From Aliiglaciecola sp. M165 (GTDB taxonomy: Bacteria > Pseudomonadota > Gammaproteobacteria > Enterobacterales > Alteromonadaceae): a stretch of DNA of 64,000 nucleotides. The notes under the pieces were generated by a model. The model ran no database searches and was not told where the DNA came from. It saw nothing but the letters and a program-made list of their open reading frames with translations. This document shows, piece by piece, positions 15,827-25,171 of this stretch; position 1 is the first letter of the stretch; each line of letters starts with the position of its first letter. A program made the translations under genes and the position numbers. The DNA lies in NCBI RefSeq assembly GCF_007197995.1, contig NZ_VKKH01000004.1:124001-188000 (forward strand), in the 5' to 3' direction.

Positions 15827-15836
15827 TTTCCTCTCT

Positions 15837-15990
15837 TGGTACCAGAGCGTAAGGTTGGATTTCCTAAGAGCGAAGCTCCGCCTAACCCCACGACACGTCA
15901 AGAATGGCGTGGCTGGGTGCGTTACCAGGGACGGGTTCATTCTGCGTTTTGTGCTGAATAAATTAGAAGTGTCGCACCTATCAAACGCAT
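15837..15990 (-). repeat. Dispersed tRNA-3'-end structured repeat, copy A
   Basis: On the minus strand the element ends in CTCTGGTACCA, the 3' end of the tRNA-Leu at 24.9 kb, but no tRNA gene is here. The half from 15909 to about 15990 is almost base-identical to the copy at 24.3 kb (one T indel). The other half has diverged but keeps the same spacing and the same stems through compensatory changes: GGTTGG/CTAACC against AGTCGG/CCGACT, and an inner hairpin GAGC-GAA-GCTC against GCAAC-GGA-GTTGC. The core CCAGGGACGGGTTCA is at 15925-15939. Confidence 0.75.
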
Positions 15991-16121
15991 AAAACGTCAT
16001 CTCCGAGCGCTCTCCTAACGTCATCACGGTGTGTCGTAGCAGCGATAGTGCCTTCTTTTGTAACGAGAATGAAAATGTTGAATCAAGTGTTTTAATGCCT
16101 TGTTTCGCAGTTGCATTTCTA

Positions 16122-23747: not shown

Positions 23748-24255
23748 TCAGTGGTCTAAATGAAAAATGATAAACTTATTGGTCTATCTTAAGTGGCAGA
23801 CAGTGATATTGTCGCGTATGGGGAAACACGCTTGATTGCCGCTACTTAGAGCATTGTTTTTTTAATGCCATCTTTCCAACCCACGTCCATACCCAACTAA
23901 GAGAATTAACTTTTGAATTGTGAATATGATTTGGTACATCACTAGCGACTGTTTCAGATTGAGTATTTGACCAATGCAAATCAACACAAAGTGTCATCTT
24001 CGCTCTCCCCCAATGCCTTCCCCGCATACTCTCCACCAACGTCATCTCCGAACCTTCCAAAACGTCTTCTCCGAGTGCTCTCCCCCACAGCGTCATCTCC
24101 GCGCGCTCTTGGCGGAGATCTTTTTTACACCTCAGAGAAATTAACCAGATCCCGGCCTAAAAGCGTTGCCGGGACGACGTGTAATATTAATCCGGCGAGA
24201 TGAAATAACCTAGACGCAGAAAACAAAAAACCAACTAAAAAATTGGTTTAAAGTT
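23748..24255. other. Repeat-rich non-coding stretch, first half
   Basis: There is no credible gene. From about 23990 to 24121 runs a degenerate tandem series of 23-28-nt units beginning GTCATCTCCGA or GTCTTCTCCGA and closing with GGCGGAGATCT, the complementary arm. The hairpin CCCGGC (24151-24156) / GCCGGG (24168-24173) follows, then GACGACGTGTAATATTA. A terminator-like AACCAACT...AATTGGTT follows near 24226-24250. Confidence 0.65.
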
Positions 24256-24414
24256 TGGTATCAGAGGGTGAAGTCGGTCTTTTTAGCAACGGAGTTGCGC
24301 CCGACTGAACAACTTGCCATGGATGGCAAGGCTGGGTGCGTTACCAGGGACGGGTTCATTCTGCGTTTTTGTGCTGAATAAATTAGAAGTGTCGCACCTA
24401 TCAAACGCATAAAT
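24256..24414 (-). repeat. tRNA-3'-end structured repeat, copy B
   Basis: On the minus strand it ends in CCTCTGATACCA, a one-base variant of the tRNA-Leu 3' end, followed by a terminator-like hairpin. The stems seen are AGTCGG/CCGACT enclosing GCAAC-GGA-GTTGC, and CTTGCCAT/ATGGCAAG. The core CCAGGGACGGGTTCA is at 24344-24358. The stretch 24330-24413 matches copy A at 15.9 kb almost exactly. Confidence 0.78.
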
Positions 24415-24600
24415 CCTCATCTCCGAGCACTCTCTACCATCTTCATTTCCGCACCTTACAAAACGTCATCTCCTAGTGCTCTCCCCCAAGATCATCTCCG
24501 AACCTTCCAAAACGTCATCTCCGAGTGCTCTTATCGGAGATCTGTATAACAGCCCACCAGATCCCGGCCTAAAAGCGTTGCCGGGACGACGTGTAATATT
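24415..24600. repeat. Degenerate TCATCTCCGA array plus hairpin
   Basis: Five units of 23-28 nt related to CGTCATCTCCGAGTGCTCT run from 24415 to 24542; the last ends TTATCGGAGATCT and closes a hairpin with its own ATCTCCGA. The hairpin CCCGGC (24563-24568) / GCCGGG (24580-24585) and GACGACGTGTAATATTA follow. The layout duplicates that at 24041-24190. Confidence 0.68.
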
Positions 24601-24682
24601 AGTCCGGCGAATGAAAACAACCTCCAATTTCAGGCACAAAAAAACCAACTAAAAAGTTGGTTTAGATGTTTGGTACCAGAGG
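24601..24682. repeat. 82-bp direct repeat carrying a tRNA-Leu end and terminator, copy 1
   Basis: 24601-24682 and 24821-24902 are identical but for one base and lie exactly 220 nt apart. Each holds the terminator hairpin and the TTTGGTACCAGAGG segment, which on the minus strand is the 3' end of tRNA-Leu. In the second copy this segment belongs to the intact tRNA; here it abuts structured repeat copy C. Confidence 0.85.
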
Positions 24683-24798
24683 GTGAAGTCGGTCTTTTTA
24701 GCAACGGAGTTGCGCCCGACTGAACGACTTGCCATGGATGGCAAGGCTGGGTGCGTTACCAAGGACGGGTTCATTCTGCGTTTTGTGCAGACCTTATT
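24671..24798 (-). repeat. tRNA-3'-end structured repeat, copy C
   Basis: The same element as copy B: minus-strand end CCTCTGGTACCA, identical AGTCGG/CCGACT and CTTGCCAT/ATGGCAAG stems, core CCAAGGACGGGTTCA at 24759-24773. It diverges from copies A and B after GTTTTGTGC. It sits where a second tRNA would be expected, between the terminator of tRNA-Leu and a further terminator copy. Confidence 0.78.
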
Positions 24799-24856
24799 CG
24801 AAGTAACGCCCCTAAACTGTAGTCCGGCGAGTGAAAACAACCTCCAATTTCAGGCA

Positions 24857-24883
24857 CAAAAAAACCAACTAAAAAGTTGGTTT
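24857..24883 (-). terminator. Intrinsic terminator of tRNA-Leu
   Basis: AAACCAACT (24862-24870) pairs with AGTTGGTTT (24875-24883) and is followed on the minus strand by a T-run (complement of the A-run from 24857). It lies 7 nt after the tRNA 3' end. An identical copy is at 24637-24663. Confidence 0.85.
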
Positions 24884-24890
24884 AGATGTT

Positions 24891-24977
24891 TGGTACCAGA
24901 GGCCGGACTTGAACCGGCACACCATTACTGGCGGCGGATTTTGAATCCGCTGCGTCTACCAATTCCGCCACTCTGGC
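24891..24977 (-). tRNA. tRNA-Leu (anticodon CAA)
   Basis: An 87-nt class II tRNA on the minus strand: acceptor stem GCCAGAG/CTCTGGT, discriminator A and encoded CCA. It has GGTAGACGC in the D-loop, an anticodon loop TTCAAAA between GCGGA and TCCGC, a variable arm, and a T-arm with GGTTCAAGTCC. It reads UUG leucine codons. The last 12 bases recur in three repeat elements in this window. Confidence 0.96.
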
Positions 24978-25040
24978 ATCGGGAATTTAATCGTTGTGAT
25001 TAAATCAGGTAGTCACTCGCTGTGCTAAAGAGTGGCAGGC

Positions 25041-25068
25041 ATTATAGCGGGCCCATTAAAGCTTGCAA
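25041..25068 (-). promoter_or_regulatory. Promoter of tRNA-Leu
   Basis: On the minus strand TTGCAA (25063-25068) and TATAAT (25041-25046) are separated by 16 nt, followed by a GC-rich GCCTGCC segment as in stringently controlled stable RNA promoters. It lies 64 nt upstream of the tRNA 5' end. Confidence 0.72.
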
Positions 25069-25171
25069 GCATTTTGTGAAAGGAATCGAACGTTTGGTGA
25101 TTTTTCATGCACATCAATTTAACCGTGTCATTCAATCTATTCGAACAACCTCTCACAACTCCCCTACCCCT

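Follow-up and report, generated by a model that had tools for sequence, protein, structure and literature searches.

Islands and prophages that sit in the 3' ends of tRNA genes carry the 3' part of the tRNA with them and so keep the gene intact. Integron cassettes recombine at a folded site, attC, with the core sites RYYYAAC and GTTRRRY; they stand in arrays and have one fixed exchange point. Elements derived from IS200/IS605 have hairpins and are inserted on the 3' side of a target that is short and fixed. The rtT repeats of E. coli K-12 comprise three units after tyrV and a fourth in the tyrT-tyrV interval, ending in AATCCTTCCCCCACCACCA, the 3' part of tRNA-Tyr from the T-arm on. REPs are described (PMC3733652) as palindromes of 20-40 bp tagged GTAG or CGTC, and those tagged CGTC are reported there to have no dedicated transposase.

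The window analysed here (the whole stretch of 64,000 nucleotides from Aliiglaciecola sp. M165) holds three copies, A, B and C, of a small structured element that we call E. B and C are close copies of one another and lie behind tRNA-Leu(CAA), and the third copy, A (15836-16014), lies 8 kb from them. Judged from sequence, the three are rather likely to be copies of a non-autonomous mobile element that would join behind CC in its target genes. The features are these:

15837..15846, minus strand: tRNA-Leu tail TCTGGTACCA carried by A
15847..15937, minus strand: element A, positions 1-91 of covariance model R1, 88.2 bits
24256..24265, minus strand: copy of the tRNA 3' end behind B, one position mismatched (TCTGATACCA); then a weaker terminator-like hairpin
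24266..24356, minus strand: element B, positions 1-91 of covariance model R1, 103.2 bits
24417..24531, strand not assigned: array of CGGAGATGACG repeats inside the second unit, outside the element
24600..24682, minus strand: duplicated block, second copy, containing the terminator at 24642-24663
24642..24663, minus strand: second intrinsic terminator, in the second block copy (9-bp stem and T run)
24671..24680, minus strand: copied tRNA 3' end TCTGGTACCA behind C
24681..24771, minus strand: element C, positions 1-91 of covariance model R1, 104.3 bits
24820..24902, minus strand: duplicated block, first copy (tRNA end, terminator, spacer), 82/83 identical to the second copy
24862..24883, minus strand: intrinsic terminator after tRNA-Leu(CAA) (9-bp stem and T run)
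24891..24977, minus strand: tRNA-Leu(CAA), the target gene (ARAGORN, Rfam)
25041..25068, minus strand: promoter-like TTGCAA-16-TATAAT before tRNA-Leu(CAA) (motif scan)

On the minus strand the order is thus the one that the preliminary description had given: tRNA-Leu(CAA), terminator, C, a copy of tRNA end and terminator, a REP-like array, B, and a further copy of the tRNA end. Its observation that the elements end in the tRNA 3' end is also borne out, exactly behind C and with one mismatch behind B. The block that it had called 82 bp long and duplicated exactly, 220 nt apart, is indeed duplicated at that distance, but it measures 83 bp, of which one position is mismatched. The copied part of tRNA-Leu(CAA) starts behind GGCC, between 24901 and 24900, and the 5' part of C may extend to about 24808, as judged by eye. 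The third hairpin, after B, is visible on reading the sequence and was not called by the terminator scan; the promoter-like site is graded weak, since one was found against 1.3 expected. Upstream, A and B have about 70 nt in common; the core of A is followed by the tail TCTGGTACCAA. No tRNA lies within 1.5 kb of A, despite its tRNA-Leu tail.

Like the GTAG and CGTC REPs (PMC3733652), E is small, palindromic, dispersed and without a gene of its own, but it is longer, has two main hairpins, ends in CACCC and is accompanied by a duplicated gene part. By inspection, its consensus fails the definition of a tagged palindrome of 20-40 bp given in PMC3733652, and a classification of E as a CGTC or GTAG REP was rejected. 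Separately from E, hairpins and an array (CGGAGATGACG / GTCCCGGC...GCCGGGAT) in 24417-24600, within the second unit, and in 24000-24200, behind B, resemble by eye the CGTC-tagged REPs (PMC3733652).

From 5' to 3', E consists of a left part (L), hairpin 1, TCGTTCA, hairpin 2 and the 3' end. L reads approximately AACACRTCC.TG...CACCCAG, hairpin 1 has TCC in its loop, and the 3' end is TTCACCC or a close variant, with CACCC also appearing as TACCC, CGCCC and the like. A defined 5' end was sought and not found, the upstream sequences being of several unrelated kinds. A DNA search of 147 genomes (that of M165 and 146 relatives) found pieces of the element in 12, adjoining tRNA-Leu, tRNA-Lys and 5S rRNA genes and, in one case, within a CRISPR array. 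From 18 aligned and folded copies, the covariance model R1 was built, with 91 positions and two hairpins; the fold of this alignment has 19 pairs, and for 13 of them one or more sequences have both partners changed. A model built from the copies and run across relatives, as the preliminary description had proposed, does recover a family: R1 matches 36 of the 147 genomes, including that of M165 (E-value up to 0.001), where it finds 13 sites at E-values up to 0.01, one of them weak. Across the class Gammaproteobacteria it matches 28 of 369 genomes, M165 again included (E-value up to 1e-6). Both genome counts are lower bounds, because strict filters were used in the two large searches.

The fold is conserved and covaries far above chance in the family. 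Among 131 distinct rows, standard pairs fill 90.8% of 2316 pair cells, and 629 cells are changed on both sides, against a mean of 187 for shuffled alignments and at most 153 for slid structures; in 28 distinct rows outside the training set of R1 (from 19 loci of the class search and one further locus of M165), 92.1% of cells are paired, with 101 double changes against 25.1 for the shuffled mean and 21 for slid structures, both alignments having been fitted to R1 and so being biased in its favour. Folding of single sequences gave no significant result, with z of -1.46 for B, -1.70 for C and +0.61 for A. A, B and C belong to a real, conserved family of small structured elements. At the loci scanned, no Rfam family reached its gathering score over the element, and matches under relaxed settings were scattered and weak. 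A blastn search with one 5S-type copy against plasmids and phages gave no match; the one pattern-scan match in viral contigs (L204) fell in an apparent coding sequence where the rest of the element is absent, and was taken as chance. The family is gene-less, and no account of such elements was found in the open-access journal literature searched, a scope too narrow to prove absence.

A rule recurs at the 3' side of E: directly after its 3' end comes a piece of a nearby gene, and the original of this piece, situated upstream of E, stands behind a CC. In 51 of the 135 distinct elements with enough flanking sequence, the 16 nt that follow E are found again no more than 450 nt upstream, with up to two mismatches. 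The dinucleotide before the upstream copy could be read in 49 of these and is CC in 44; with the 13 of these 44 in which the copy follows another E excluded, it is CC in 31 of 36, although both counts include repeated rRNA operons and orthologous loci and their members are not independent. CC makes up 4.6% of the dinucleotides in the window. Control stretches further downstream of E recur upstream in 77 of 399 cases, because arrays repeat whole units. The remaining 84 of these 135 near elements have no upstream copy of the 3' flank, and this was counted against a mobile element. Since E itself ends in CC, the exact crossover cannot be placed within the CC.

The targets are varied. Among tRNA genes they include tRNA-Leu (GGCC/TCTGG, the slash marking the junction), tRNA-Lys and tRNA-Arg (GAATCC/), tRNA-Tyr and tRNA-Leu(CAG), and the 5S rRNA gene is joined at GTTTCC/CCATG. 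At tRNA-Ser, where E is antisense, the duplicate comes from the 5' part of the tRNA. E has also settled in its own L and, in two genomes, in repeats of the CRISPR type. The target gene stays whole beside E, and the length of the duplicate varies from about 13 to more than 150 bp. Measured by eye, the duplicate at tRNA-Ser has about 13 bp, those at tRNA-Leu have 58 to 100 bp, and the one at tRNA-Arg in L202 exceeds 150 bp. The general form of the unit is gene part, terminator or spacer, L and core, often in arrays. Within one genome the same core lies beside tRNA-Leu, tRNA-Tyr, tRNA-Phe and 5S genes, each time with a partial copy of that gene (decayed at tRNA-Phe). As with the islands and prophages of tRNA ends, the incoming DNA would bring the tRNA 3' part and preserve the gene; E differs from them in that its units measure about 85-400 bp, have no integrase, and also occupy antisense tRNA places, 5S genes and CRISPR sites.

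Two sets of loci may be mentioned in their own right. One rRNA operon of M165 (L145, G000:C26, 416-508) has E at a second 5S site, CATTCC/GAACTCAG. In CRISPR arrays, E is joined to the second half of the repeat at L092 (G030:C12) and at L185 and L186 (G088:C1); the array at L092 is Rfam CRISPR-DR4, and L186 has regular repeat arrays.

Of the 27 other class genomes that R1 matches, 19 contributed loci to a distant set, and 12 of these 19 loci have a tRNA no further than 67 nt from an E. Together with one further locus of M165 they hold 31 elements, of which 22 have an upstream copy of the 3' flank (at most one mismatch in 14) and nine have none, these nine being counted against mobility. Every one of the 22 copies lies behind CC, as do 18 of 18 when four behind another E are excluded; ATCC precedes the junction in eight of the 18. 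For 16 of the 31 elements the upstream copy lies inside the neighbouring tRNA, on reading in the D-arm antisense in eight cases (e.g., CTATCC/AACTGAGC), in the T-arm sense in four, and in other antisense places in four. Copies ending in tRNA parts thus occur in related genomes, an outcome whose opposite would have counted against the reading of the preliminary description. One tRNA-Met in G165 (L242, G165:C1, 777-2110) has seven E units to one side of it and two to the other, all pointing away from it, spaced at 141-146 bp and nearly identical within each side.

Are the elements RNAs? The preliminary description had suggested that they are stable small RNAs, which would be cut from a tRNA precursor at the copied tRNA ends. 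The conserved fold would suit such RNAs, the copies in the window are on the strand of the tRNA, and the copied tRNA ends are plausible as processing marks. However, a terminator stands between the tRNA and C and another after C, copies also occur in CRISPR arrays and inside other copies of E, and, of the 14 distant elements that have a tRNA at 100 nt or less, only three share its strand, while 11 lie opposite and point away from the tRNA. We thus consider it very unlikely that the family consists of putative stable RNAs of this kind.

The members of the family are probably mobile. Orthologous loci with and without the core exist, although some of the core-less ones are not clean, and all the evidence is comparison between species, with one genome per species. 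Of eight tRNA-Ser(GGA) loci read in the genus, E is present in G005, G008 and G003 (the last cut by a contig end) and its core is absent in G000 (M165), G002, G004, G006 and G007. Only G002, G004 and G006 look empty, because G007 (L208) and, in decayed form, G000 (L211) carry another, core-less duplicate of the tRNA-Ser 5' part. The second copy in L208 and L211 lies about 190 nt from the first and follows a hairpin unlike those of E, TTTGTTCCAGACAAA, which suggests that some other type of element might share the target. At tRNA-Leu(CAA), E is found in G000, G001, G003 (with the hairpins deleted), G005, G007 and G008, and there is none in G002 and G006; G004 gave no match for this locus, and a stretch in G002 may be a remnant of L. 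The tRNA-Leu genes of Paraglaciecola arctica BSs20135 and of an uncultured Paraglaciecola have E, that of P. arctica A3R16 has L and no core, and in BSs20135 a second E sits within the first, behind CATCC.

Could the same patterns have arisen without mobility? Slippage, or unequal recombination of the CACCC end with an upstream CC, might have produced tandem duplicates of a structure-prone region beside tRNA genes. Near-identical tandem units (L242, L194, L165) are what such a process would leave, and the use of E itself as a target (L012, L092) agrees with it. It would not readily place the same core beside tRNA-Leu, tRNA-Tyr, tRNA-Phe and 5S genes of one genome with matching gene-part copies, nor give A a tRNA tail where there is no tRNA, although recombination between REP repeats could also have placed A. 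We give local duplication a low probability.

If E is a mobile element, as we prefer to think, it probably acts as folded single-stranded DNA. An enzyme supplied in trans would attach the 3' end of E after a CC that is part of, or close to, a hairpin in a tRNA, a 5S rRNA, a CRISPR repeat or another E. In its simplest form this would be an insertion, with the 3' end behind CC, plus a duplicate of the far side of the target; an integrating circle made up of gene part, terminator, spacer and E would give the same outcome by another route. Because the unit carries the gene part, the target gene would presumably suffer no harm. Three arrays (L194, L200 and L015) close with a unit that breaks off directly after L (CCAG or CTAG) and has no core, and a plain insertion with target duplication does not account for these; in G165 the last unit runs slightly into hairpin 1.

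Which enzyme might be responsible? Like the derivatives of IS200/IS605, E has hairpins and lies 3' of a short, fixed target; unlike in these, a duplicate of the far side of the target precedes it, and the Y1 transposase is not associated with it, being found in 18 of 36 genomes with E versus 54 of 111 without. Y1 occurs in 17 of 25 E genomes, namely 23 other genomes of the class plus G088 and G145, and no match was found in M165 at E-values up to 1e-5. A derivation from IS200/IS605 is thus not supported.

E could also be a SINE-like retroelement, its RNA being reverse-transcribed onto a nick behind CC, so that the 3' junction would be fixed while the target duplicate differs in length from case to case. 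The fixed 3' end, the CC common to element end and target, and the variable duplicate would all fit target-primed reverse transcription, but no match to RVT_1 (reverse transcriptase) was found in seven of 16 chosen E genomes, that of M165 included, and we attach very little probability to this origin.

The integron integrase does show an association. TIGR02249 matches (E-value up to 1e-60) occur in 32 of 36 genomes with E versus 64 of 111 without (Fisher p 0.0005, or p 0.008 with the genus of M165 counted once, the sole correction for kinship). E might be a by-product of integrons, gene-less cassettes with a folded site that the integrase would use at secondary sites. E does resemble attC sites and cassettes in being folded and arrayed, with a single fixed exchange point, and arrays of E look like cassette arrays. 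Against this, the consensus has no GTTRRRY or RYYYAAC at the exchange point (by inspection), no long gene was seen in the units that were read, and the targets are tRNA and 5S genes and CRISPR repeats. Of the 27 other class genomes with E, 23 were searched (E-bearing genomes only), and 12 have an integrase above the cut-off. Among the 147, the integrase is lacking in the E genomes G023, G061, G088 and G145; G088 and G145 are single-contig genomes, as is the distant genome G165, which has nine copies of E and no integrase above the curated cut-off. An integron origin is accordingly quite improbable in our estimate. As the enzyme for E, Y1, RVT_1 and the integrase are each disfavoured because each is missing from some genomes with many copies. 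A search for a gene linked to E took in 960 open reading frames from 15 genomes (20 neighbourhoods), and a single cluster had members in at least three genomes; on reading, this is ordinary replication-like and clamp-loader-like, and it was dropped as a candidate. Taken as a mobile element, E points to a recombinase that is still to be found.

The preliminary description had also likened the locus to the rtT repeats. The likeness holds in architecture, both being tandem units behind a tRNA that each close with the tRNA 3' part, and it does not extend to homology. The Rfam RtT model (RF00391), which finds four copies at tyrT-tyrV of E. coli, has no match at E-values up to 10 in positions 24000-25100 of the window, and R1 gives no meaningful score over the E. 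coli rtT repeats. E is thus built like rtT yet is not a member of that family, since the architecture agrees while the sequences and folds do not; rtT also has a period of 178 bp. The shared part of rtT begins at AATCC of the T-arm, which is compatible with a junction behind CC without proving it.

One may go further and propose that the Gammaproteobacteria harbour a class of gene-less mobile DNA which, folded as a single strand, recombines after CC in tRNA and 5S rRNA genes and CRISPR repeats, carrying a cut-off gene part so that essential genes survive, that rtT lives in the same manner although its sequence is not homologous, and that one recombinase drives both. This wider proposal is tentative, and we think it rather unlikely to hold in full. 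The rule itself, a CACCC end with a duplicated gene part from behind CC, would offer one explanation both for odd duplicates of tRNA and 5S ends and for the insertions that CRISPR arrays contain, and R1 can be used as a covariance model for annotating such elements. The old question about the nature of rtT also becomes testable: do these repeats move by a cut in the T-arm? The rtT unit (L280, E. coli K-12 1285500-1288500) also contains AAGTCCCTGAAC, which is reminiscent of the L of E, possibly by chance.
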